From positions 1-64,000 of the forward strand of contig CM074128.1 in NCBI GenBank assembly GCA_037178625.1: 64,000 nt of DNA, written 5' to 3'. Source of the stretch: Skeletonema tropicum. Lineage: Eukaryota > Bacillariophyta > Thalassiosirophyceae > Thalassiosirales > Thalassiosiraceae. Below the pieces are notes generated by a model that saw only the letters and a program-made list of their open reading frames with translations, was not told the origin of the DNA and made no database searches. Below, piece by piece: positions 1-53,798 of the stretch. The translations under genes and the position numbers were made by a program. Every line of letters begins with the position of its first letter. Positions within the stretch are counted from its first letter, which is position 1.

Positions 1-3000
1 CTTCTACGCACGCCAAACGTCTGAGCAGTGCTAATGTGCTTGTATGGTATCACCGCCGACTGTAATGGGCCACTAGAAGCGGCTCATGCGTGTAATGGCG
101 ACGATAGGTACGATTTGGTGGGATGTGGTGCTGCTGGCCAGCCCACACTAGACCTCCCATATCTGCCACGAGACTGTAGCATCGCTTCTACGCACGCCAA
201 ACGTCTGAGCAGTGCTTAATGTGCTTGTATGGTATCACCGCCGACTGTAATGGGCCACTAGAAGCGGCTCATGCGTGTAATGGCGACGATAGGTACGATT
301 TGGTGGGATGTGGTGCTGCTGGCCAGCCCACACTGACCTCCCATATCGCCACGAGACTGTAGCATCGCTTCTACGCACGCCAAACGTCTGAGCAGTGCTA
401 ATGTGCTTGTATGGTATCACCGCCGACTGTAATGGGCCACTAGAAGCGGCTCATGCGTGTAATGGCGACGATAGGTACGATTTGGTGGGGATGTGGTGCT
501 GCTGGCCAGCCCACACTAGACCTCCCATATCTGCCACGAGACTGTAGCATCGCTTCTACGCACGCCAAACGTCTGAGCAGTGCTAATGTGCTTGTATGGT
601 ATCACCGCCGACTGTAATGGGCCACTAGAAGCGGCTCATGCGTGTAATGGCGACGATAGGTACGATTTGGTGGGATGTGGTGCTGCTGGCCAGCCCACAC
701 TGGACCTCCCATATCGCCACGAGACTGTAGCATCGCTTCTACGCACGCCAAACGTCTGAGCAGTGCTAATGTGCTTGTATGGTATCACCGCCGACTGTAA
801 TGGGCCACTAGAAGCGGCTCATGCGTGTAATGGCGACGATAGGTACGATTTGGTGGGATGTGGTGCTGCTGGCCAGCCCACACTAGACCTCCCATATCTG
901 CCACGAGACTGTAGCATCGCTTCTACGCACGCCAAACGTCTGAGCAGTGCTAATGTGCTTGTATGGTATCACCGCCGACTGTAATGGGCCACTAGAAGCG
1001 GCTCATGCGTGTAATGGCGACGATAGGTACGATTTGGTGGGATGTGGTGCTGCTGGCCAGCCCACACTAAGACCTCCCATATCTGCCACGAGACTGTAGC
1101 ATCGCTTCTACGCACGCCAAACGTCTGAGCAGTGCTAATGTGCTTGTATGGTATCACCGCCGACTGTAATGGGCCACTAGAAGCGGCTCATGCGTGTGTA
1201 ATGGCGACGATAGGTACGATTTGGTGGGATGTGGTGCTGCTGGCCAGCCCACACTGACCTCCCATATCTGCCACGAGACTGTAGCATCGCTTCTACGCAC
1301 GCCAAACGTCTGAGCAGTGCTAATGTGCTTGTATGGTATCACCGCCGACTGTAATGGGCCACTAGAAGCGGCTCATGCGTGTAATGGCGACGATAGGTAC
1401 GATTTGGTGGGATGTGGTGCTGCTGGCCAGCCCACACTGGACCTCCCATATCTGCCACGAGACTGTAGCATCGCTTCTACGCACGCCAAACGTCTGAGCA
1501 GTGCTAATGTGCTTGTATGGTATCACCGCCGACTGTAATGGGCCACTAGAAGCGGCTCATGCGTGTAATGGCGACGATAGGTACGATTTGGTGGGATGTG
1601 GTGCTGCTGGCCAGCCCACACTGGACCTCCCATATCCGCCACGAGACTGTAGCATCGCTTCTACGCACGCCAAACGTCTGAGCAGTGCTAATGTGCTTGT
1701 ATGGTATCACCGCCGACTGTAATGGGCCACTAGAAGCGGCTCATGCGTGTAATGGCGACGATAGGTACGATTTGGTGGGATGTGGTGCTGCTGGCCAGCC
1801 CACACTAGACCTCCCATATCTGCCACGAGACTGTAGCATCGCTTCTACGCACGCCAAACGTCTGAGCAGTGCTAATGTGCTTGTATGGTATCACCGCCGA
1901 CTGTAATGGGCCACTAGAAGCGGCTCATGCGTGTAATGGCGACGATAGGTACGATTTGGTGGGATGTGGTGCTGCTGGCCAGCCCACACTGGACCTCCCA
2001 TATCCGCCACGAGACTGTAGCATCGCTTCTACGCACGCCAAACGTCTGAGCAGTGCTAATGTGCTTGTATGGTATCACCGCCGACTGTAATGGGCCACTA
2101 GAAGCGGCTCATGCGTGTAATGGCGACGATAGGTACGATTTGGTGGGATGTGGTGCTGCTGGCCAGCCCACACTAGACCTCCCATATCTGCCACGAGACT
2201 GTAGCATCGCTTCTACGCACGCCAAACGTCTGAGCAGTGCTAATGTGCTTGTATGGTATCACCGCCGACTGTAATGGGCCACTAGAAGCGGCTCATGCGT
2301 GTAATGGCGACGATAGGTACGATTTGGTGGGATGTGGTGCTGCTGGCCAGCCCACACTAGACCTCCCATATCCTGCCACGAGACTGTAGCATCGCTTCTA
2401 CGCACGCCAAACGTCTGAGCAGTGCTAATGTGCTTGTATGGTATCACCGCCGACTGTAATGGGCCACTAGAAGCGGCTCATGCGTGTAATGGCGACGATA
2501 GGTACGATTTGGTGGGATGTGGTGCTGCTGGCCAGCCCACACTGGACCTCCCATATCCGCCACGAGACTGTAGCATCGCTTCTACGCACGCCAAACGTCT
2601 GAGCAGTGCTAATGTGCTTGTATGGTATCACCGCCGACTGTAATGGGCCACTAGAAGCGGCTCATGCGTGTAATGGCGACGATAGGTACGATTTGGTGGG
2701 ATGTGGTGCTGCTGGCCAGCCCACACTAGACCTCCCATATCTGCCACGAGACTGTAGCATCGCTTCTACGCACGCCAAACGTCTGAGCAGTGCTAATGTG
2801 CTTGTATGGTATCACCGCCGACTGTAATGGGCCACTAGAAGCGGCTCATGCGTGTAATGGCGACGATAGGTACGATTTGGTGGGATGTGGTGCTGCTGGC
2901 CAGCCCACACTGGACCTCCCATATCCGCCACGAGACTGTAGCATCGCTTCTACGCACGCCAAACGTCTGAGCAGTGCTAATGTGCTTGTATGGTATCACC

Positions 3001-6000
3001 GCCGACTGTAATGGGCCACTAGAAGCGGCTCATGCGTGTAATGGCGACGATAGGTACGATTTGGTGGGATGTGGTGCTGCTGGCCAGCCCACACTGGACC
3101 TCCCATATCTGCCACGAGACTGTAGCATCGCTTCTACGCACGCCAAACGTCTGAGCAGTGCTAATGTGCTTGTATGGTATCACCGCCGACTGTAATGGGC
3201 CACTAGAAGCGGCTCATGCGTGTAATGGCGACGATAGGTACGATTTGGTGGGATGTGGTGCTGCTGGCCAGCCCACACTAGACCTCCCATATCTGCCACG
3301 AGACTGTAGCATCGCTTCTACGCACGCCAAACGTCTGAGCAGTGCTAATGTGCTTGTATGGTATCACCGCCGACTGTAATGGGCCACTAGAAGCGGCTCA
3401 TGCGTGTAATGGCGACGATAGGTACGATTTGGTGGGATGTGGTGCTGCTGGCCAGCCCACACTAGACCTCCCATATCTGCCACGAGACTGTAGCATCGCT
3501 TCTACGCACGCCAAACGTCTGAGCAGTGCTAATGTGCTTGTATGGTATCACCGCCGACTGTAATGGGCCACTAGAAGCGGCTCATGCGTGTAATGGCGAC
3601 GATAGGTACGATTTGGTGGGATGTGGTGCTGCTGGCCAGCCCACACTAGACCTCCCATATCTGCCACGAGACTGTAGCATCGCTTCTACGCACGCCAAAC
3701 GTCTGAGCAGTGCTAATGTGCTTGTATGGTATCACCGCCGACTGTAATGGGCCACTAGAAGCGGCTCATGCGTGTAATGGCGACGATAGGTACGATTTGG
3801 TGGGATGTGGTGCTGCTGGCCAGCCCACACTGGACCTCCCATATCCGCCACGAGACTCTAGCATCGCTTCTACGCACGCCAAACGTCTGAGCAGTGCTAA
3901 TGTGCTTGTATGGTATCACCGCCGACTGTAATGGGCCACTAGAAGCGGCTCATGCGTGTAATGGCGACGATAGGTACGATTTGGTGGGATGTGGTGCTGC
4001 TGGCCAGCCCACACTAGACCTCCCATATCTGCCACGAGACTGTAGCATCGCTTCTACGCACGCCAAACGTCTGAGCAGTGCTAATGTGCTTGTATGGTAT
4101 CACCGCCGACTGTAATGGGCCACTAGAAGCGGCTCATGCGTGTAATGGCGACGATAGGTACGATTTGGTGGGATGTGGTGCTGCTGGCCAGCCCACACTA
4201 GACCTCCCATATCTGCCACGAGACTGTAGCATCGCTTCTACGCACGCCAAACGTCTGAGCAGTGCTAATGTGCTTGTATGGTATCACCGCCGACTGTAAT
4301 GGGCCACTAGAAGCGGCTCATGCGTGTAATGGCGACGATAGGTACGATTTGGTGGGATGTGGTGCTGCTGGCCAGCCCACACTGGACCTCCCATATCCGC
4401 CACGAGACTCTAGCATCGCTTCTACGCACGCCAAACGTCTGAGCAGTGCTAATGTGCTTGTATGGTATCACCGCCGACTGTAATGGGCCACTAGAAGCGG
4501 CTCATGCGTGTAATGGCGACGATAGGTACGATTTGGTGGGATGTGGTGCTGCTGGCCTGCCCACACTGGACCTCCCATATCAGCCACGAGACTGTAGCAT
4601 CGCTTCTACGCACGCCAAACGTCTGAGCAGTGCTAATGTGCTTGTATGGTATCACCGCCGACTGTAATGGGCCACTAGAAGCGGCTCATGCGTGTAATGG
4701 CGACGATAGGTACGATTTGGTGGGATGTGGTGCTGCTGGCCAGCCCACACTAGACCTCCCATATCTGCCACGAGACTGTAGCATCGCTTCTACGCACGCC
4801 AAACGTCTGAGCAGTGCTAATGTGCTTGTATGGTATCACCGCCGACTGTAATGGGCCACTAGAAGCGGCTCATGCGTGTAATGGCGACGATAGGTACGAT
4901 TTGGTGGGATGTGGTGCTGCTGGCCAGCCCACACTGGACCTCCCATATCCGCCACGAGACTCTAGCATCGCTTCTACGCACGCCAAACGTCTGAGCAGTG
5001 CTAATGTGCTTGTATGGTATCACCGCCGACTGTAATGGGCCACTAGAAGCGGCTCATGCGTGTAATGGCGACGATAGGTACGATTTGGTGGGATGTGGTG
5101 CTGCTGGCCAGCCCACACTAGACCTCCCATATCCGCCACGAGACTGTAGCATCGCTTCTACGCACGCCAAACGTCTGAGCAGTGCTAATGTGCTTGTATG
5201 GTATCACCGCCGACTGTAATGGGCCACTAGAAGCGGCTCATGCGTGTAATGGCGACGATAGGTACGATTTGGTGGGATGTGGTGCTGCTGGCCTGCCCAC
5301 ACTGGACCTCCCATATCAGCCACGAGACTGTAGCATCGCTTCTACGCACGCCAAACGTCTGAGCAGTGCTAATGTGCTTGTATGGTATCACCGCCGACTG
5401 TAATGGGCCACTAGAAGCGGCTCATGCGTGTAATGGCGACGATAGGTACGATTTGGTGGGATGTGGTGCTGCTGGCCAGCCCACACTAGACCTCCCATAT
5501 CTGCCACGAGACTGTAGCATCGCTTCTACGCACGCCAAACGTCTGAGCAGTGCTAATGTGCTTGTATGGTATCACCGCCGACTGTAATGGGCCACTAGAA
5601 GCGGCTCATGCGTGTAATGGCGACGATAGGTACGATTTGGTGGGATGTGGTGCTGCTGGCCAGCCCACACTGGACCTCCCATATCCGCCACGAGACTCTA
5701 GCATCGCTTCTACGCACGCCAAACGTCTGAGCAGTGCTAATGTGCTTGTATGGTATCACCGCCGACTGTAATGGGCCACTAGAAGCGGCTCATGCGTGTA
5801 ATGGCGACGATAGGTACGATTTGGTGGGATGTGGTGCTGCTGGCCAGCCCACACTAGACCTCCCATATCCGCCACGAGACTGTAGCATCGCTTCTACGCA
5901 CGCCAAACGTCTGAGCAGTGCTAATGTGCTTGTATGGTATCACCGCCGACTGTAATGGGCCACTAGAAGCGGCTCATGCGTGTAATGGCGACGATAGGTA

Positions 6001-7243
6001 CGATTTGGTGGGATGTGGTGCTGCTGGCCAGCCCACACTAGACCTCCCATATCTGCCACGAGACTGTAGCATCGCTTCTACGCACGCCAAACGTCTGAGC
6101 AGTGCTAATGTGCTTGTATGGTATCACCGCCGACTGTAATGGGCCACTAGAAGCGGCTCATGCGTGTAATGGCGACGATAGGTACGATTTGGTGGGATGT
6201 GGTGCTGCTGGCCAGCCCACACTGGACCTCCCATATCCGCCACGAGACTCTAGCATCGCTTCTACGCACGCCAAACGTCTGAGCAGTGCTAATGTGCTTG
6301 TATGGTATCACCGCCGACTGTAATGGGCCACTAGAAGCGGCTCATGCGTGTAATGGCGACGATAGGTACGATTTGGTGGGATGTGGTGCTGCTGGCCTGC
6401 CCACACTAGACCTCCCATATCTGCCACGAGACTGTAGCATCGCTTCTACGCACGCCAAACGTCTGAGCAGTGCTAATGTGCTTGTATGGTATCACCGCCG
6501 ACTGTAATGGGCCACTAGAAGCGGCTCATGCGTGTAATGGCGACGATAGGTACGATTTGGTGGGATGTGGTGCTGCTGGCCAGCCCACACTAGACCTCCC
6601 ATATCTGCCACGAGACTGTAGCATCGCTTCTACGCACGCCAAACGTCTGAGCAGTGCTAATGTGCTTGTATGGTATCACCGCCGACTGTAATGGGCCACT
6701 AGAAGCGGCTCATGCGTGTAATGGCGACGATAGGTACGATTTGGTGGGATGTGGTGCTGCTGGCCAGCCCACACTAGACCTCCCATATCTGCCACGAGAC
6801 TGTAGCATCGCTTCTACGCACGCCAAACGTCTGAGCAGTGCTAATGTGCTTGTATGGTATCACCGCCGACTGTAATGGGCCACTAGAAGCGGCTCATGCG
6901 TGTAATGGCGACGATAGGTACGATTTGGTGGGATGTGGTGCTGCTGGCCAGCCCACACTAGACCTCCCATATCTGCCACGAGACTGTAGCATCGCTTCTA
7001 CGCACGCCAAACGTCTGAGCAGTGCTAATGTGCTTGTATGGTATCACCGCCGACTGTAATGGGCCACTAGAAGCGGCTCATGCGTGTAATGGCGACGATA
7101 GGTACGATTTGGTGGGATGTGGTGCTGCTGGCCAGCCCACACTGGACCTCCCATATCCGCCACGACACTCTAGCATCGCTTCTACGCACGCCAAACGTCT
7201 GAGCAGTGCTAATGTGCTTGTATGGTATCACCGCCGACTGTAA
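1..7243 (+). repeat. 184-bp satellite array, block A (about 39 copies)
   Basis: Head-to-tail monomers of 184 bp, about 55% GC, fill this block with very high identity. Copies differ mainly at four diagnostic sites: A or G in the cactAGACC/cactGGACC step, CTG, CCG or CAG in the atatCTGCC step, G or C in gactGTAGC/gactCTAGC, and A or T in ggccAGCCC/ggccTGCCC. Each monomer contains the 10-bp palindrome GCTGGCCAGC, which the T variant destroys. From 4446 the copies form a four-monomer higher-order unit repeated twice. The first 1.3 kb holds extra single-base indels (for example near 216, 342, 487, 1197), as expected at a degenerate array edge or from consensus errors. The repeated 73-residue open frame is a by-product of the repeat. 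The period is not a multiple of three, so each next copy lies in another frame. Confidence 0.98.
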
Positions 7244-7247
7244 TTAG

Positions 7248-8288
7248 TGGGCCACACCTCCACAAGGTACATGCCATGACAATATTATTAACGGAGCAAC
7301 AACACTACGTGTAGATTCACCAACATTTATCAGTGACACACCTCCTACAAAGCAAACAACATCAATTAGGTACTTACCAGTCGAGGACGCCGACGATGTG
7401 TACGCAGCCCATGATAACATGCTACACAACTTGGATACTCTTATTAACACCTTTGACGACTCTGAGCAATCTACTCAGTATGAACCATTTAATTATGAAG
7501 ACAGTGACGAGTATGAGGAATTAGTAGAAACTCTTCCACAACTCCAACACGACCTGGAAACAGCGGGAAAGATTTTTTTAGCAGCAACTCAGCGAAATCA
7601 TATTGCATTTGAGGTTGAGGACGAATACAATACTGATGAAGAAGAGAGTTTCATGAAGCTTGAACCGAAGGTTGAGGACGAATACAATACTGATGAAGAA
7701 GAGAGTTCCATGAAGCTTGAACCGAAGGTTGAGGACGAATACAATACTGATGAAGAAGAGAGCTCCATGAAGCTTGAACCGACTGAGGTTACAGCAGCGG
7801 ATATAGTGCTGAATGATAGCGCGCAGAGGACTCGTATTGGAACTAACAAAATTGAAATTGAGCAGTGGAATTGTGTTGAAACTAAGACAACTGAAGTTGA
7901 GCAGAGGAAACGTATTGGAACTCAAACAACCGATGTTAAGCAGCGGAACTGTATTGGAACTAAGACAACCGATGTTGAGCAGAGGAAATGTATTGGACCT
8001 AAGATGAACGATGTGGATCAGCAGAATATTATTGGAACTAACTCTGGAGTGCAGGCAAAACCGTGGTCGTTTATGATTGACGAAGGTTACCTAGTGGCTG
8101 ATATTCCCGTTACCTTAATGCATTCAGGCGATCAAATGGGTCTGTATGGTAGCCAGTGGAATCCTGGGATCGACCGGGGTAACCCAGATGATTCAGTTAC
8201 AAAAACAACCCTTGATTACCCCAATGATGTTGGAGACAACTTGGTCACGTCACTCATTGTAAAGTGGACTTCCTTTGTCCTTTATTGA
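7248..8288 (+). CDS. Truncated retrotransposon ORF with acidic and IGT-type repeats
   Basis: The frame is open from just after a TAG at 7245-7247 to a TGA at 8286-8288, so the N-terminus was probably lost with the 5' part of the element. Near 7612-7782 it contains three tandem 57-nt repeats encoding an acidic module (VEDEYNTDEEESSMKLEPK or close to it). At about 7838-8040 follow five or six degenerate repeats built on a V-E-Q-R-x-C-I-G-T pattern. The rest is hydrophilic. I recognise no catalytic domain. Position just upstream of a polypurine tract and LTR makes it the 3'-terminal ORF of a retrotransposon, or the C-terminal tail of its polyprotein. Whether it is expressed is unknown. Confidence 0.5.
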   Translation, partial: WATPPQGTCHDNIINGATTLRVDSPTFISDTPPTKQTTSIRYLPVEDADDVYAAHDNMLHNLDTLINTFDDSEQSTQYEPFNYEDSDEYEELVETLPQLQHDLETAGKIFLAATQRNHIAFEVEDEYNTDEEESFMKLEPKVEDEYNTDEEESSMKLEPKVEDEYNTDEEESSMKLEPTEVTAADIVLNDSAQRTRIGTNKIEIEQWNCVETKTTEVEQRKRIGTQTTDVKQRNCIGTKTTDVEQRKCIGPKMNDVDQQNIIGTNSGVQAKPWSFMIDEGYLVADIPVTLMHSGDQMGLYGSQWNPGIDRGNPDDSVTKTTLDYPNDVGDNLVTSLIVKWTSFVLY

Positions 8289-8342
8289 AAGGATAGAGAT
8301 GCTATTTGGTACAATCCGATATCGACTACGTGATATCGAATT

Positions 8343-8351
8343 GTGGGGGGG
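8343..8351 (+). other. Polypurine tract of the truncated LTR retrotransposon
   Basis: A G-run (gtggggggg) sits immediately 5' of the TGTTAG that opens the LTR. This is where plus-strand priming sites of LTR retrotransposons lie. Confidence 0.65.
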
Positions 8352-8472
8352 TGTTAGATTACACGTACGTAGATACAAGTAGAGTACGGAAATACTCTAA
8401 TCATTATCTTTTATCTCCTATCTAATCTATCAATAGCATCGATTGGAAGTAGGGAGATCGAGGATACTAACA
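8352..8472 (+). repeat. 121-bp 3' LTR
   Basis: Begins TGTTAG and ends CTAACA, the inverted TG...CA ends typical of LTRs. It directly follows a polypurine tract and directly precedes resumed satellite. No second copy was seen in the window, so the 5' LTR is absent or outside. Confidence 0.65.
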
Positions 8473-11400
8473 ACACTAGACCTCCCATATCTGCCACGAG
8501 ACTGTAGCATCGCTTCTACGCACGCCAAACGTCTGAGCAGTGCTAATGTGCTTGTATGGTATCACCGCCGACTGTAATGGGCCACTAGAAGCGGCTCATG
8601 CGTGTAATGGCGACGATAGGTACGATTTGGTGGGATGTGGTGCTGCTGGCCTGCCCACACTGGACCTCCCATATCAGCCACGAGACTGTAGCATCGCTTC
8701 TACGCACGCCAAACGTCTGAGCAGTGCTAATGTGCTTGTATGGTATCACCGCCGACTGTAATGGGCCACTAGAAGCGGCTCATGCGTGTAATGGCGACGA
8801 TAGGTACGATTTGGTGGGATGTGGTGCTGCTGGCCAGCCCACACTGGACCTCCCATATCCGCCACGAGACTCTAGCATCGCTTCTACGCACGCCAAACGT
8901 CTGAGCAGTGCTAATGTGCTTGTATGGTATCACCGCCGACTGTAATGGGCCACTAGAAGCGGCTCATGCGTGTAATGGCGACGATAGGTACGATTTGGTG
9001 GGATGTGGTGCTGCTGGCCAGCCCACACTAGACCTCCCATATCTGCCACGAGACTGTAGCATCGCTTCTACGCACGCCAAACGTCTGAGCAGTGCTAATG
9101 TGCTTGTATGGTATCACCGCCGACTGTAATGGGCCACTAGAAGCGGCTCATGCGTGTAATGGCGACGATAGGTACGATTTGGTGGGATGTGGTGCTGCTG
9201 GCCAGCCCACACTAGACCTCCCATATCTGCCACGAGACTCTAGCATCGCTTCTACGCACGCCAAACGTCTGAGCAGTGCTAATGTGCTTGTATGGTATCA
9301 CCGCCGACTGTAATGGGCCACTAGAAGCGGCTCATGCGTGTAATGGCGACGATAGGTACGATTTGGTGGGATGTGGTGCTGCTGGCCAGCCCACACTGGA
9401 CCTCCCATATCCGCCACGAGACTGTAGCATCGCTTCTACGCACGCCAAACGTCTGAGCAGTGCTAATGTGCTTGTATGGTATCACCGCCGACTGTAATGG
9501 GCCACTAGAAGCGGCTCATGCGTGTAATGGCGACGATAGGTACGATTTGGTGGGATGTGGTGCTGCTGGCCAGCCCACACTAGACCTCCCATATCTGCCA
9601 CGAGACTGTAGCATCGCTTCTACGCACGCCAAACGTCTGAGCAGTGCTAATGTGCTTGTATGGTATCACCGCCGACTGTAATGGGCCACTAGAAGCGGCT
9701 CATGCGTGTAATGGCGACGATAGGTACGATTTGGTGGGATGTGGTGCTGCTGGCCTGCCCACACTGGACCTCCCATATCAGCCACGAGACTGTAGCATCG
9801 CTTCTACGCACGCCAAACGTCTGAGCAGTGCTAATGTGCTTGTATGGTATCACCGCCGACTGTAATGGGCCACTAGAAGCGGCTCATGCGTGTAATGGCG
9901 ACGATAGGTACGATTTGGTGGGATGTGGTGCTGCTGGCCAGCCCACACTGGACCTCCCATATCCGCCACGAGACTCTAGCATCGCTTCTACGCACGCCAA
10001 ACGTCTGAGCAGTGCTAATGTGCTTGTATGGCATCACCGCCGACTGTAATGGGCCACTAGAAGCGGCTCATGCGTGTAATGGCGACGATAGGTACGATTT
10101 GGTGGGATGTGGTGCTGCTGGCCAGCCCACACTAGACCTCCCATATCTGCCACGAGACTGTAGCATCGCTTCTACGCACGCCAAACGTCTGAGCAGTGCT
10201 AATGTGCTTGTATGGTATCACCGCCGACTGTAATGGGCCACTAGAAGCGGCTCATGCGTGTAATGGCGACGATAGGTACGATTTGGTGGGATGTGGTGCT
10301 GCTGGCCAGCCCACACTGGACCTCCCATATCCGCCACGAGACTCTAGCATCGCTTCTACGCACGCCAAACGTCTGAGCAGTGCTAATGTGCTTGTATGGT
10401 ATCACCGCCGACTGTAATGGGCCACTAGAAGCGGCTCATGCGTGTAATGGCGACGATAGGTACGATTTGGTGGGATGTGGTGCTGCTGGCCAGCCCACAC
10501 TAGACCTCCCATATCTGCCACGAGACTGTAGCATCGCTTCTACGCACGCCAAACGTCTGAGCAGTGCTAATGTGCTTGTATGGTATCACCGCCGACTGTA
10601 ATGGGCCACTAGAAGCGGCTCATGCGTGTAATGGCGACGATAGGTACGATTTGGTGGGATGTGGTGCTGCTGGCCAGCCCACACTAGACCTCCCATATCT
10701 GCCACGAGACTGTAGCATCGCTTCTACGCACGCCAAACGTCTGAGCAGTGCTAATGTGCTTGTATGGTATCACCGCCGACTGTAATGGGCCACTAGAAGC
10801 GGCTCATGCGTGTAATGGCGACGATAGGTACGATTTGGTGGGATGTGGTGCTGCTGGCCAGCCCACACTGGACCTCCCATATCCGCCACGAGACTCTAGC
10901 ATCGCTTCTACGCACGCCAAACGTCTGAGCAGTGCTAATGTGCTTGTATGGTATCACCGCCGACTGTAATGGGCCACTAGAAGCGGCTCATGCGTGTAAT
11001 GGCGACGATAGGTACGATTTGGTGGGATGTGGTGCTGCTGGCCAGCCCACACTAGACCTCCCATATCTGCCACGAGACTGTAGCATCGCTTCTACGCACG
11101 CCAAACGTCTGAGCAGTGCTAATGTGCTTGTATGGTATCACCGCCGACTGTAATGGGCCACTAGAAGCGGCTCATGCGTGTAATGGCGACGATAGGTACG
11201 ATTTGGTGGGATGTGGTGCTGCTGGCCAGCCCACACTAGACCTCCCATATCTGCCACGAGACTGTAGCATCGCTTCTACGCACGCCAAACGTCTGAGCAG
11301 TGCTAATGTGCTTGTATGGTATCACCGCCGACTGTAATGGGCCACTAGAAGCGGCTCATGCGTGTAATGGCGACGATAGGTACGATTTGGTGGGATGTGG

Positions 11401-12643
11401 TGCTGCTGGCCAGCCCACACTGGACCTCCCATATCCGCCACGAGACTGTAGCATCGCTTCTACGCACGCCAAACGTCTGAGCAGTGCTAATGTGCTTGTA
11501 TGGTATCACCGCCGACTGTAATGGGCCACTAGAAGCGGCTCATGCGTGTAATGGCGACGATAGGTACGATTTGGTGGGATGTGGTGCTGCTGGCCAGCCC
11601 ACACTAGACCTCCCATATCTGCCACGAGACTGTAGCATCGCTTCTACGCACGCCAAACGTCTGAGCAGTGCTAATGTGCTTGTATGGTATCACCGCCGAC
11701 TGTAATGGGCCACTAGAAGCGGCTCATGCGTGTAATGGCGACGATAGGTACGATTTGGTGGGATGTGGTGCTGCTGGCCTGCCCACACTGGACCTCCCAT
11801 ATCAGCCACGAGACTGTAGCATCGCTTCTACGCACGCCAAACGTCTGAGCAGTGCTAATGTGCTTGTATGGTATCACCGCCGACTGTAATGGGCCACTAG
11901 AAGCGGCTCATGCGTGTAATGGCGACGATAGGTACGATTTGGTGGGATGTGGTGCTGCTGGCCAGCCCACACTGGACCTCCCATATCCGCCACGAGACTC
12001 TAGCATCGCTTCTACGCACGCCAAACGTCTGAGCAGTGCTAATGTGCTTGTATGGCATCACCGCCGACTGTAATGGGCCACTAGAAGCGGCTCATGCGTG
12101 TAATGGCGACGATAGGTACGATTTGGTGGGATGTGGTGCTGCTGGCCAGCCCACACTAGACCTCCCATATCTGCCACGAGACTGTAGCATCGCTTCTACG
12201 CACGCCAAACGTCTGAGCAGTGCTAATGTGCTTGTATGGTATCACCGCCGACTGTAATGGGCCACTAGAAGCGGCTCATGCGTGTAATGGCGACGATAGG
12301 TACGATTTGGTGGGATGTGGTGCTGCTGGCCAGCCCACACTAGACCTCCCATATCTGCCACGAGACTGTAGCATCGCTTCTACGCACGCCAAACGTCTGA
12401 GCAGTGCTAATGTGCTTGTATGGTATCACCGCCGACTGTAATGGGCCACTAGAAGCGGCTCATGCGTGTAATGGCGACGATAGGTACGATTTGGTGGGAT
12501 GTGGTGCTGCTGGCCAGCCCACACTGGACCTCCCATATCCGCCACGAGACTCTAGCATCGCTTCTACGCACGCCAAACGTCTGAGCAGTGCTAATGTGCT
12601 TGTATGGTATCACCGCCGACTGTAATGGGCCACTAGAAGCGGC
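8473..12643 (+). repeat. 184-bp satellite array, block B (about 23 copies)
   Basis: This is the same monomer and the same diagnostic variants as block A. A rare T-to-C change that turns tggTATC into tggCATC occurs only in the monomers around 10030 and 12054. Those two lie 2,024 bp (eleven monomers) apart, and the variant order of the monomers around them matches, so block B contains a recent eleven-monomer segmental duplication with one monomer lost. The array ends inside a monomer at about 12643, where unique sequence leading into the helicase gene begins. Confidence 0.97.
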
Positions 12644-12691
12644 TCTTACACCACGCTGTACAAGTCCAAAGACACACAATCCGAAGACAAG

Positions 12692-49453: not shown

Positions 49454-52400
49454 TCAAGTCAGGATTGGAAGATGATCCGAACACTCATTAGGTTTCGAGC
49501 CCAGATTGTTTCCGCGGAATGGCAAGTTCTGTGTCTTCGTACTGTGTCTCCCTTTGTCTTGATGATTACAGATGTTCTTCTCCACCCTGTTAATGCGGCT
49601 ATCGATTTGACTAAGTATTTCGTCCCTATCTGCTTGAGTGACCCTATCAAAGAAAATATGATTAGTAGATGATTGGAGCGAAGAAGAAAAATGCAGAACG
49701 TCATTTGTTGACTTACCTCTTCCACTCGTCGAGTGAGAATGAATTTGGCACATTCTCTTTCTGAGGTGTGGGGAAGAGTATGGACCGACGATTCAGAGTT
49801 TTCGAATCAAATGCGAAAGGCTTCGGAACTCCACATTTTCTCGTTCCAGTTCTCCTATTCAATGAGATCGAGTGCACCGCGAGAGCGTTAGTTTGCGTCG
49901 CTGAACAAAAATGCTTTGCCACAGTGGCACATGAACCCTGAGAATAGGGCAAATAAGTACGTAGGAATTCCATACATGCCTGTCCCCCGTTTTTTTTTGG
50001 TTCCGACGATCTCCACTTTTTGCTCTCCACCGCCGCAGCCACAAAGATCCGCCCTCCCGTAGTATCATATTACCACCCATACCATAGGGCACACACAACG
50101 CATAATAACTTGATAACATACTGTCCCCTACAGAATTTTCCGTAGAATTCAACGGCGGCCGCCGATTTGTTACGTTTGCAGCGGTTTTATTTACGTATCG
50201 TCATAAAGCTGACGGTGCTTTTTCTTATCATCATCGCATCTTTCATCATGGTTTCGACCAAACAATTGTCTCCCAAGACTCCGAAGGTAGGAAAGAAGCG
50301 CCGATCAACAAAAGTTACTCCCTCTCCTGTGGCAGTGAAAAAGAAAAAGAATGCATGTGACTGCAATTGGAAAGATTGCGCTAAACTTCTGGCAATTTTT
50401 AACAAAAACAAACACCCTGACTTTGCTGGCAGATGCATCAATATTGAAGTGTCCGACACAGTCAATGCATTGAATTTTATTAATTGTGCATGTAAAAACC
50501 TTGGTATTTCCGTATCCGACTACAAAGAACTAAAACAGAAAGCAACAGATGACTCTAATATGAAACGGACACGTGCAACACACACGGAGGGAGGGAGGAG
50601 GAAGAAGAACAACATATTCATTGCACGGCATCACTTCAAGCCTGGGCTATGGAGAATGAAAAAAGCGAGTAAGAAAAAGTGGCAATGGCTTCAGCCCATA
50701 TCATCAGACGACGTTAAAAAATACAAAGTGTTGGCTGATAACTACACAACCGACAAAGTTGTACGGTTCGATCCGGACATATCCAACAAACTACAAAATG
50801 GGAGAGAGAAGAAAGTCGACTGTGAATCAGAGGAGGGGAGAATGTATATCAAAGCGCCATGCGCTACAAAGGAGGATGTGCGGCAGATTGCAGAACCTCG
50901 TCAAGGACTTGACAGCAACACTCTTGATGAAAAGAGGGAAGCTGCACTTACAGCAGAGGAAATGAAAGCAACGATTGCTTCAAAGGATGCAATGATTGAA
51001 ACGCTACGAAAGCAACTAGAACAATCCAATGCAGAGAAGAAAAAGAAAGATGACGAACTAAAGCGAATAAAATTACAAAAGGATGTTGCAAAGTCACAAA
51101 AGAAAGCTGTGCAGAAAAGTATCAAAAGAACGACGGCCAAGCATGCTGAGGATGTTGCAAACATTGCGGTGGAACTGCAGGAATCCACTATTTTGCAAGA
51201 AGCAAAGGAGATCGTCTTGAACGCTGGTGGTCTGTCCATACTACTTGATACCTCTCTTACCATATGCACATTCCCTGGCACATGGCGAGGCGAATCTAGA
51301 TCAACCATTTCGTACACCAGGTGATAACTCGATCGTTGCGGAGGAGTACTGGCCCAAAAACAAGAAGAGTCGTAAATCATAAATGTTATATTAATCATTT
51401 CGCTTTCGTTTATTACCTGCTTGCCTCTTAGTTTGAGCTTGCTGCCTATTAAAAATATCTAATGCATGCAAGTTCTCAATCAATACTGGTTCAGCTTGTA
51501 CAAGCTTTGGAGACACAGGATATCCTGTCTCAAATTCCTTCTGTGAAGCACTACGCTGCACTAATGCTAGCACCAAGAGGAAAGCAATCATATGCGAGCA
51601 AAAGAGTGATCCATCTTCGCAACTGCATGTTGACAGTGGGGATGATAGAAAGTCCCCGTCCTTCTTATCTTCAAAGACGGCATGGATGGTATGGATGACA
51701 GGTCGGACAGAACTCAGAGCTTCGCAGCGCAATAGCAGGCAAGATGAATTGTCTATTTTGGATGTCACATTGCAACATTGGATAGAGCGTGGATTGATGT
51801 TTCCTCCTTTCAAGAGTAGTATTGCTCGTGATCTCATTCCTGGAAGGGCTCCATCCAACTTCTCTTCCATGTAGCTGTCACTTACATCTCTAACGAGTTT
51901 TGCAATTGTGTAGTAGTCTTTGTCCCAAGAGTCAAACTTATTGTTAGCAATTCGTGCCTCTAACGCCTCAAATCCGTTGTACTTTCCCATTAGAAACTTG
52001 ATACTAGGAGGAAGCACAGGTTTGTTGTTAGCTAATGCCCACCGTACATTCCGCTCGATAATTGATCTCGACTCCTTCTGAAGTGTTTTAATCCCTCTTG
52101 ACTGCAGCCAAAGTATTAGACACAATCGCGGTTGTGCTTCAAGTGGAACCTTTTCAAAGTCAAGGCGGGCAAATGTTGGAAGCGGCTCACTTGTTGCAAC
52201 AGTTGCATTATCAGCAGCAGAATAACAGGGGCCACGCTCCTCATCAACTGGCTTCCCAGTCAATGGTACGACATTGCGTACATGGTAAACGTCATCGTAT
52301 TGATGCGGGGTGATGGCAGCATCTCTGTCGAAGGCGATTTGAAGATATGATTCTAAATCGTCAACACCTTCTGGCAATGGAGTCAATGGTACAACCGACA

Positions 52401-53798
52401 CATTCCCGGTACTCTGACATTTCTGAAATACCGGTGCATGCAAGAGGTAACGGCGTGCTGCTTCGTAATCTGCCGCATAATTGTCGGGTGCATTCTTATT
52501 TGTAGCCCCCAATGTCTTCACCCACTCCTCGCGGTCACTTGCTGCGGCTAGTTTATCAATCAATCCACCATCTTTCAGAACAGTCTTCTTTCCAACTAAG
52601 CGGATGTTTGGATGGTAATCATTACCTAGGAGCAGAGCGATGTCAACAATATTGTTGGGATGTTGTGCCAATTTAGACGATGTTTCTCGCTCAATGAATT
52701 CTTTCTTTTCGTAGATGCGTGAAAATAACTTTCCTGATTCTGTTTTCCATTTAGATAGAACCATCTCGCTGTTCAGGATAATCAGGTCGCCATCCTCTGT
52801 CGCAATTGCGTCAACAACACCGTCCATCTCCAGCTTCCTCATCTGTTGGTCTGCCTCAAATAAAGAGCCAACCATCCAGATGCCTTTACTTGCCATCCAA
52901 GAAATAACTGCTGCATGATCGGCTGCGGTAGGATGCGCCTTTTTCATTCTACTTGCAATTGCTTGTTCCACCTCTTCTTCTTCAAAGTTAAGGGGTGCAG
53001 CATCATCTTGCAGTTGCAACACATCACACAAAAACTTATCATACTCTTCCCCACCTTTGTTGCGATCACCTTGCCTACGCAACTTCTCTCTATTCTTTAT
53101 TGGCGGCGCTTTCCCGTCAAATACGTAGCAGGGTATTACTCCTGCATCAATCACCAGGTCGTGAAACTCTTGCACGTAGTCTAATATATCCGGAGATGCA
53201 TAAGTTGGTTCGTTTGTTGAAGTCAGTTTCGTCAGCTCCTTGCCGTTTACCTTGTTCAATATGATTGCAGCATCGAAGGCAACTCTTTTCCCTTTCAAAA
53301 TAGATAATGCTTGGTGTGGTTTGCTGCTAAAGCCACCCAAAGCATGCACCCAGAGGTGACGGACTGTCATCGGCGTGGAATAAATTAATTATCACGCACC
53401 GTCAGCTTTATGACGATACGTAAATAAAACCGCTGCAAACGTAACAAATCGGCGGCCACCGTTGAATTCTACGGAAAATTCTGTAGGGGACAGTATGTTA
53501 TCAAGTTATTATGCGTTGTGTGTGCCCTATGGTATGGTTGGTAGTATGATACTACGGGAGGGCGGATCTTTTGTGGCTACGGTGGTGGAGAGCAAAAAGT
53601 TGAGATCGTCGGAACCAAAAAAAAACGGGGGACAGGCTTTACGTAGGGATTCTCACGGTTCATTGGACTGGCACTTACGTTGGGCTCGAACCGCTCGAAA
53701 CACTTCTCCGATTCATCCTGTTTTGTGACCGATATTAGAATGCGAAGAAGTGGTAGAAGTGAAACTGAGTTCCTGTCCGTGCGTGAGTTTACAAGATA
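49454..53798 (-). CDS. Hypothetical gene with a transposon in its intron (partial)
   Basis: Three open segments join with GT-AG sites and matching phase: 53798-53679 (no Met, so an upstream exon is likely), 49937-49717 and 49643-49454. The second intron is 73 nt. The first is 3,741 nt and contains the whole 49978-53637 transposon. With the transposon removed it would be about 60-80 nt, the normal size here. Donor GTAAGTG and acceptor TTTGCCCTATTCTCAG are strong. The product is about 143 residues or more, basic, with no family I know (SISLNRRTGTRKCGVPKPF, then RVTQADRDEILSQIDSRI). The model rests on splice logic and open frames only. Confidence 0.4.
49978..50217 (+). repeat. Left terminal inverted repeat of the nuclease transposon
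   Basis: The reverse complement of this segment matches 53396-53637 with about six substitutions and one indel. The inner edge ends at ...CTGACGGTGC. Confidence 0.92.
50248..51324 (+). CDS. Transposon ORF: Cys/His-rich N-terminus plus coiled coil (358 aa)
   Basis: The start ATG at 50248 lies 30 bp inside the left TIR. A Lys-rich N-terminus is followed by CDCNWKDCAKLLAIF, further Cys (NCACK) and IARHHFKPGLW, a spacing reminiscent of a THAP-like DNA-binding finger though not a clean match. The middle part is basic. From about residue 235 to 330 there is a long coiled coil (EEMKATIASKDAMIETLRKQ onward). The C-terminus is short and hydrophobic. By position it may be the DNA-binding subunit that recognises the inverted repeats and partners the nuclease. 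That is inference; it could also be a highly diverged transposase. Confidence 0.7.
   Translation: MVSTKQLSPKTPKVGKKRRSTKVTPSPVAVKKKKNACDCNWKDCAKLLAIFNKNKHPDFAGRCINIEVSDTVNALNFINCACKNLGISVSDYKELKQKATDDSNMKRTRATHTEGGRRKKNNIFIARHHFKPGLWRMKKASKKKWQWLQPISSDDVKKYKVLADNYTTDKVVRFDPDISNKLQNGREKKVDCESEEGRMYIKAPCATKEDVRQIAEPRQGLDSNTLDEKREAALTAEEMKATIASKDAMIETLRKQLEQSNAEKKKKDDELKRIKLQKDVAKSQKKAVQKSIKRTTAKHAEDVANIAVELQESTILQEAKEIVLNAGGLSILLDTSLTICTFPGTWRGESRSTISYTR
51391..53370 (-). CDS. FEN1/XPG-like nuclease with SWIM finger (659 aa)
   Basis: The N-terminal XPG domain has the metal-binding Asp in VAFDAAI (D33) and VFDGKAPP (D85). The internal domain has FEAD near 175, ATEDGDLI near 195 and LLGNDY near 250, the acidic set of flap endonucleases. 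DIALLLGNDYHPNIRLVGKK matches the helix-hairpin-helix entry of the family. Near 580-595, CSCEDGSLFCSHMIAF fits the SWIM finger (CxC, then CxH), a DNA or protein-binding module common in Mutator- and Zisupton-type transposases but not in cellular FEN1. The usual PCNA-binding tail is not evident, and the end is Lys/Arg-rich. As it sits within terminal inverted repeats it is probably a mobile-element nuclease acting on strand ends during transposition. The start at 53370 lies just inside the right TIR. Confidence 0.85.
   Translation of the reverse strand: MTVRHLWVHALGGFSSKPHQALSILKGKRVAFDAAIILNKVNGKELTKLTSTNEPTYASPDILDYVQEFHDLVIDAGVIPCYVFDGKAPPIKNREKLRRQGDRNKGGEEYDKFLCDVLQLQDDAAPLNFEEEEVEQAIASRMKKAHPTAADHAAVISWMASKGIWMVGSLFEADQQMRKLEMDGVVDAIATEDGDLIILNSEMVLSKWKTESGKLFSRIYEKKEFIERETSSKLAQHPNNIVDIALLLGNDYHPNIRLVGKKTVLKDGGLIDKLAAASDREEWVKTLGATNKNAPDNYAADYEAARRYLLHAPVFQKCQSTGNVSVVPLTPLPEGVDDLESYLQIAFDRDAAITPHQYDDVYHVRNVVPLTGKPVDEERGPCYSAADNATVATSEPLPTFARLDFEKVPLEAQPRLCLILWLQSRGIKTLQKESRSIIERNVRWALANNKPVLPPSIKFLMGKYNGFEALEARIANNKFDSWDKDYYTIAKLVRDVSDSYMEEKLDGALPGMRSRAILLLKGGNINPRSIQCCNVTSKIDNSSCLLLRCEALSSVRPVIHTIHAVFEDKKDGDFLSSPLSTCSCEDGSLFCSHMIAFLLVLALVQRSASQKEFETGYPVSPKLVQAEPVLIENLHALDIFNRQQAQTKRQAGNKRKRND
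53396..53637 (-). repeat. Right terminal inverted repeat of the nuclease transposon
   Basis: This is the partner of the repeat at 49978-50217. It begins GCACCGTCAGC at the inner edge and ends GGGGGACAGGC at the outer edge. Confidence 0.92.

Follow-up and report, generated by a model that had tools for sequence, protein, structure and literature searches.

Among described DNA transposons, the ISL2EU group of the PHIS elements is reported to duplicate an AT dinucleotide and to carry a gene for a transposase with THAP, helix-turn-helix (HTH) and DDE regions together with a gene for a YqaJ exonuclease (PMC4482050, PMC9179366). According to the Han et al. (2015) survey, the ISL2EU families covered were all from animals, the target is A|AT|T, and the inverted repeats measure 6–259 bp and usually start with GG (PMC4482050). 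Nucleases are also described for Academ, with target duplications of 3–4 bp (AcademX) or 9–10 bp (AcademH) and a nuclease in AcademX whose type the passage leaves unspecified (PMC10045372), and for Kolobok D, E and P, DDE transposon lineages that gained different accessory nucleases, in a paper whose text contains neither XPG nor FEN (PMC9587614). Here, a 64,000-nucleotide stretch of the genome of the diatom Skeletonema tropicum (assembly GCA_037178625.1, contig CM074128.1, positions 1–64,000; hereafter the window) was found to hold a cut-and-paste transposon copy that is non-autonomous and has an internal deletion, the full element being about 5.3 kb long. The whole of the evidence is very probably best explained by a deleted copy of a two-gene transposon encoding a DDE transposase and a FEN1-SWIM nuclease, and we are similarly confident that the family is of PHIS type, its plan being closest to that of animal ISL2EU. 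No description of a DDE transposon with a FEN1-SWIM nuclease was found in the open-licence PMC literature, which does not cover Repbase, so that a Repbase entry is possible.

Boundaries, target site and copies of the element

When the left repeat was searched against the S. tropicum genome (78.4 Mb, 125 contigs), 42 candidates were returned. Of these, 40 were scored as matches and the places fetched, yielding at least 23 near-identical copies including that in the window. Both inverted repeats are present in 17 of the 23, L030 has both termini with the left repeat mostly deleted, and L025–L029 have one end within the fetched stretch. Based on the copies that retain an end, the element occupies positions 49933–53661 (3729 bp) between AT dinucleotides and has the termini GAACC...GGTTC. 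The original prediction, which was made from the letters of the window, had placed the ends at 49978 and 53637, thereby leaving out sequence that the copies have in common, ~45 bp at the left end and ~24 bp at the right. Its inverted repeats of ~240 bp and ~97% identity were recovered as paired arms at 49978–50045/53570–53637 (96% identity) and 50043–50218/53396–53571 (98% identity); the repeats as a whole consist of ~240-bp near-perfect arms and a 15-bp outer end with a non-matching stretch between. The transposase and FEN1-SWIM genes are convergent, tail to tail, with 8 bp between their stop codons. The features of the window copy are:

49931–49932, no strand: AT, left target-site duplication (an AT abuts 18 of 19 left ends; empty sites have a single AT)
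49933–50218, plus strand: left terminal region, with the outer GAACCCTGAGAAT end and the ~240-bp inverted repeat, common to the fetched copies that retain a left end
50248–51324, plus strand: truncated transposase gene encoding a Cys/His motif and coiled coil in 332 N-terminal residues, then 26 out-of-frame residues, recognised from longer open reading frames (ORFs) in sister copies
51233–51382, plus strand: remnant of the 3′ part of the transposase gene with its stop codon, corresponding to residues 567–615 of the L018 ORF and in a frame that differs from the 5′ part, from ORF comparison
51235–51236, no strand: junction of an internal deletion of ~1.57 kb that removed all three catalytic transposase residues, from comparison with L018
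51391–53370, minus strand: FEN1-SWIM gene, 659 amino acids (aa), intact, convergent with the transposase gene (ORF, Pfam and PDB sequence matches)
51592–51627, minus strand: SWIM zinc-finger motif CxC-x6-CxH, residues 582–593 (motif in alignment; Pfam match sub-threshold)
52420–53313, minus strand: FEN1/Exo1-like nuclease domain, approximately residues 20–317 (Pfam, PDB sequence and Foldseek matches)
53396–53661, minus strand: right terminal region, with the inverted repeat and the outer ATTCTCACGGTTC end, from repeat comparison and the shared ends of copies
53662–53663, no strand: AT, right target-site duplication, from copy ends and empty sites

The AT that abuts the left ends is likewise present at 18 of 20 right ends (L030 was omitted from both counts, as it shares the site of L023). 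The exceptions are L013, at either end, and L017, at its right end only; these copies differ from the others in their last terminal bases. Short repeats, CAGT and GTGAT, flank them in place of the standard AT, and the two may be imprecise insertions. When the flanks of L011 were joined via one AT, the joined sequence matched 40 of 40 scored places (70 candidates) over all 298 bases at 99–100% identity, and because these paralogous empty sites hold a single AT, the target duplication is the 2-bp AT. L011 itself (G000:C20:1555200-1560700) sits inside a highly repeated element, represented by these same scored places, which points to a recent burst of the hosting element as well. Next to the AT, counted at fitting ends only, 19 of 36 positions had C at −1 or G at +1, and only 3 of 36 had A at −1 or T at +1; the flanks therefore favour C|AT|G.

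Compared to the window copy, 14 of 18 other left arms are identical over 286 bp and four differ by one base (L030 set aside); of the 20 other right arms, 15 show no difference over 266 bp, three differ by one base and two (L016, L024) have a 2-bp insertion. From this copy-to-copy identity, the family has been recently active, and the at least 23 near-identical copies bear out the predicted two-gene DNA transposon with long inverted repeats and recent activity. The prediction had argued for that activity from the youth of the inverted repeats; the activity stands and the argument does not, since the differences between left and right arms recur across copies and their 97% identity cannot date the element. 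Among the 1-kb flanks compared, sequence in common was found only for L023 and L030 (63 bp left, 135 bp right), which have the same flanks and different internal deletions; either the target is itself repeated, or one insertion was duplicated and its interior diverged later.

The transposase gene and its deletions

Sister copies with the same ends retain DDE domain segments missing from the window copy. The same N-terminus runs on into ORFs of 705–739 aa in L017, L019 and L021, and lies within an 869-aa ORF of L025 that spans a gap of 500 N. Judged from these sequences, the full transposase is a protein of ~900 aa with an N-terminal Cys/His region, a predicted coiled coil, a probable HTH and a DDE_4-type catalytic domain. 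The coiled-coil protein, which had been read as a complete partner gene, is thus the transposase N-terminus (residues 1–332) followed by 26 residues of out-of-frame read-through after the deletion. The earlier statement that no transposase was to be seen holds for the window copy, which is without the catalytic domain, and fails for the family, in which longer sister copies carry parts of a DDE transposase.

In the window family, DDE_Tnp_4 is matched weakly and below cut-off (E 0.0034), and in the related L061 protein above cut-off. Among 23 aligned transposase relatives, DDE_Tnp_4 was matched at E ≤ 0.05 in five and HTH_Tnp_4 at E ≤ 0.05 in four, with no HTH_Tnp_4 match reported for the window family's own ORFs; the catalytic D, D and E are identical in 13 of 13 in the alignment. 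The transposase N-terminus has a conserved CxC...C...AxxH(H) motif, and the model of relative P0008 (83% identity) has a strand-helix-strand order in this region; there was no Pfam THAP match in the window-family ORFs or the 23 relatives, and no THAP row in the structure comparison. Named relatives are from Thalassiosira exigua, T. oceanica and Skeletonema dohrnii. An extra C-terminal Cys/His cluster occurs in the distant relatives P0013, P0015–P0018, P0020 and P0021 and is absent from the window family, and Pfam PHD was matched in two and a RING-like model in one of the 23 relatives.

In the window copy, element coordinates 1303–1304 join L018 positions 838 and 2411 with a 2-bp overlap. When 17 copies were mapped against it, L015 and L022 were identical over 3729 bp and the remaining 15 each had deletions of their own, with junctions of 0–5 bp overlap or 2–14 bp filler, as would be expected from end joining or interrupted gap repair. 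No uninterrupted full-length copy occurs among those fetched. At no scored place was the whole transposase in one frame, though L025 could not be read across its gap; the full length near 5.3 kb was obtained arithmetically, from L018 and its missing segments. The whole 659-aa nuclease was found at 100% in four of 23 copies (window, L022, L015 and L010), and the transposase has been lost more often than the nuclease. On C15, pieces in the right order look, from their match positions, like one copy split by insertions of ~6 and ~13 kb.

The KP protein of the P element acts as a repressor, and by analogy the truncated N-terminus from the 3.7-kb copies could repress the family, a role that is compatible with the best explanation and which we consider rather doubtful. 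The derivative is present as three identical copies and keeps the putative DNA-binding region and coiled coil, with helices and strands in the P0008 model, though it may instead have amplified by chance. A more radical proposal, contained in the original prediction, makes one of the two proteins, FEN1-SWIM or the short Cys/His coiled-coil product, a recombinase that works via an undescribed route. Seen from the window copy, L015 and L022, which encode no catalytic transposase and have FEN1-SWIM as their only intact gene, this would be a natural reading; it becomes extremely improbable given that sister copies with the same ends carry the DDE transposase segments lost here (the outcome that the prediction itself had set against the idea), that the short protein is the product of a deletion and frameshift, and that the 2-bp AT duplication is, in the passage on ISL2EU, a known PHIS feature (PMC4482050).

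The FEN1-SWIM nuclease and its pairing with the transposase

The 659-aa ORF matched Pfam XPG_I (E 6e-10) and XPG_N (E 5e-6), with a SWIM match at E 0.021, below cut-off. Its PDB sequence matches were FEN1, Rad2 and Exo1, and Foldseek of an AlphaFold model (mean predicted local distance difference test score only 55.8) returned human Exo1 first (E 8.6e-13), then Rad2, FEN1 and XPG, at ~20% identity to Rad2-family structures. The seven positions that correspond to the metal ligands of FEN1 are all acidic (D33, D85, E172, D174 [for Glu160], D193, D195 and D251); in a six-sequence alignment they are kept wherever relatives cover them, except that D85 is Gly in P0004. The CxC-x6-CxH motif is kept in P0001, P0004, P0005 and P0006, P0007 being without that region, and of the relatives (P0001, 82%; P0004, 42%; P0006, 39%) the distant P0004 and P0006 retain the architecture. 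By these sequence criteria, the second gene encodes a SWIM-containing nuclease of the Rad2/FEN1/Exo1 family, in agreement with the FEN1-SWIM nuclease with acidic residues originally predicted, and not YqaJ (PF09588), for which there was no match in the S. tropicum genome in a search that matched two of 14 control genomes. The protein shares its fold and metal-binding acids with host FEN1, Exo1 and XPG of the Rad2 family, and is unlike them in its low identity (~20%), its C-terminal SWIM motif and its carriage by a transposon.

The nuclease relative P0001 and the transposase relative P0008 are each recorded on a 5793-base contig, and probably share one contig in a related genome. Within S. tropicum, an 829-aa protein on C13 with XPG_I, XPG_N (at cut-off) and, by eye, a CxC...CxH motif adjoins a compact DDE_4 transposase of 402 aa, the two genes being divergent where those of the window family are convergent; this second, divergent FEN1-like/DDE_4 element (L061:1333-5917; G000:C13:969500-975500) has short inverted repeats (25 nt, 88%; 16 nt, 100%). 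A DDE_4 match lies beside a FEN1-like frame at C4:496–498 kb, and a rearranged FEN1-like/transposase pair occurs on C23 (L062). Of 14 XPG_I places that do not belong to the family, three have one of 57 hand-listed transposase places within 3 kb (rough chance 3e-5 if placement is uniform), and the remaining 11 do not. Seven further places similar to the SWIM half all lie 1–2 kb from a transposase match, though they are probably related to each other and hence not independent; in the one that was read, the SWIM ORF is divergent from the transposase. Because divergent FEN1-like/DDE pairs recur in the genome, the pairing looks old.

At the C23 locus (L062:1421-3259; G000:C23), a 612-aa ORF has a FEN1-like domain in frame with the C-terminal part of a DDE transposase. 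A true nuclease-transposase fusion was considered; as the N-terminal transposase part is inverted, downstream on the other strand, and the matched part (residues 417–595) is without the first catalytic Asp, the locus is probably a rearranged copy, a fusion gene in use being less likely.

The nuclease could also play no part in transposition, as passive cargo or as a repair gene captured from the host. Its partial loss from most copies (the whole protein at 100% in only four of 23) and the other genes of the same superfamily in the genome are in keeping with this, yet it is unlikely in view of the divergent FEN1-like proteins beside DDE_4 transposases at the distinct places on C13, C4 and C23, the probable pair on one contig of a related genome, the retention of most catalytic acids at ~40% identity, and a transposase that is lost more often than the nuclease and is nowhere complete in one frame.

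Elsewhere in the window, positions 1–12645 are a 184-bp tandem satellite (~68 copies, 91% matches) starting at the first base of the contig (C2), with a GC content mostly of 0.50–0.55 compared to ~0.45 beyond, which is perhaps subtelomeric or centromeric.

Relation to known transposons and a possible role for the nuclease

The diatom family resembles ISL2EU in its AT duplication, two genes (DDE transposase and nuclease), size of ~5 kb and long inverted repeats. The second gene of ISL2EU is YqaJ, whereas here it is a Rad2/FEN1-family nuclease with SWIM; ISL2EU is flanked by A..T, whereas the flanks here favour C..G; and ISL2EU ends are usually GG, whereas these begin with GA, with a repeat length within the ISL2EU range. 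The hosts in the ISL2EU survey are animals and the host here is a diatom, and where the ISL2EU transposase has a THAP domain, the transposase here has a Cys/His motif with no demonstrated THAP fold. Because YqaJ, A|AT|T flanks and the GG end are not in common and THAP is unproven, the family was filed under PHIS as a variant that is like ISL2EU but has another nuclease, and not as ISL2EU. PIF/Harbinger, with a 3-bp TWA duplication and a Myb/SANT second gene, differs from the AT duplication and XPG-family nuclease found here; Kolobok makes TTAA duplications.

The nuclease of AcademX is probably an XPG, and the Academ transposase belongs to a different superfamily from that of the diatom family. 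A branch of Academ, the alternative offered in the original prediction, would fit in that both are DNA transposons with a nuclease, which in AcademX, too, is probably an XPG, although the passage on AcademX names only a nuclease (PMC10045372). This assignment is very improbable, given a 2-bp AT duplication compared to 3–4 bp and DDE_Tnp_4 signatures, with HTH_Tnp_4 in some relatives, that point to PHIS; the two are set apart here by duplication and transposase signatures.

When a DDE enzyme has joined 3′ ends to a staggered cut in the target, 5′ ends and gaps are left over that have to be repaired. FEN1 and Exo1 are nucleases that cleave 5′ flaps and also resect 5′ ends, and degradation of 5′ ends is likewise an activity of the lambda-exonuclease-like fold to which YqaJ belongs. 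In the diatom PHIS variant, the transposase would excise the element and join its ends at C|AT|G-like sites, and FEN1-SWIM would trim 5′ flaps or resect 5′ ends, either where the element has been joined or in the gap at the donor site; YqaJ may do the equivalent in animal ISL2EU. The varied internal deletions may derive from repair that was interrupted while the gap from excision was being filled, and the window copy would depend for its movement on transposase from elsewhere but could itself still provide nuclease. We regard the evidence for a role of the nuclease in 5′-end or flap processing during transposition as evenly balanced, and suggest only tentatively that a diatom branch of PHIS replaced the YqaJ of ISL2EU with an unrelated FEN1/Exo1-family SWIM nuclease, or independently acquired one in its place.

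If true, a dedicated 5′ nuclease would be a working part of AT-duplicating transposons, provided by two unrelated folds and acting on the 5′ ends of the intermediate. The presence in the same place of an unrelated nuclease, expected to have a similar polarity, raises the question of whether such transposons need a 5′ nuclease of their own, and for which step, and the divergent pairs within one genome would be natural material for that question.
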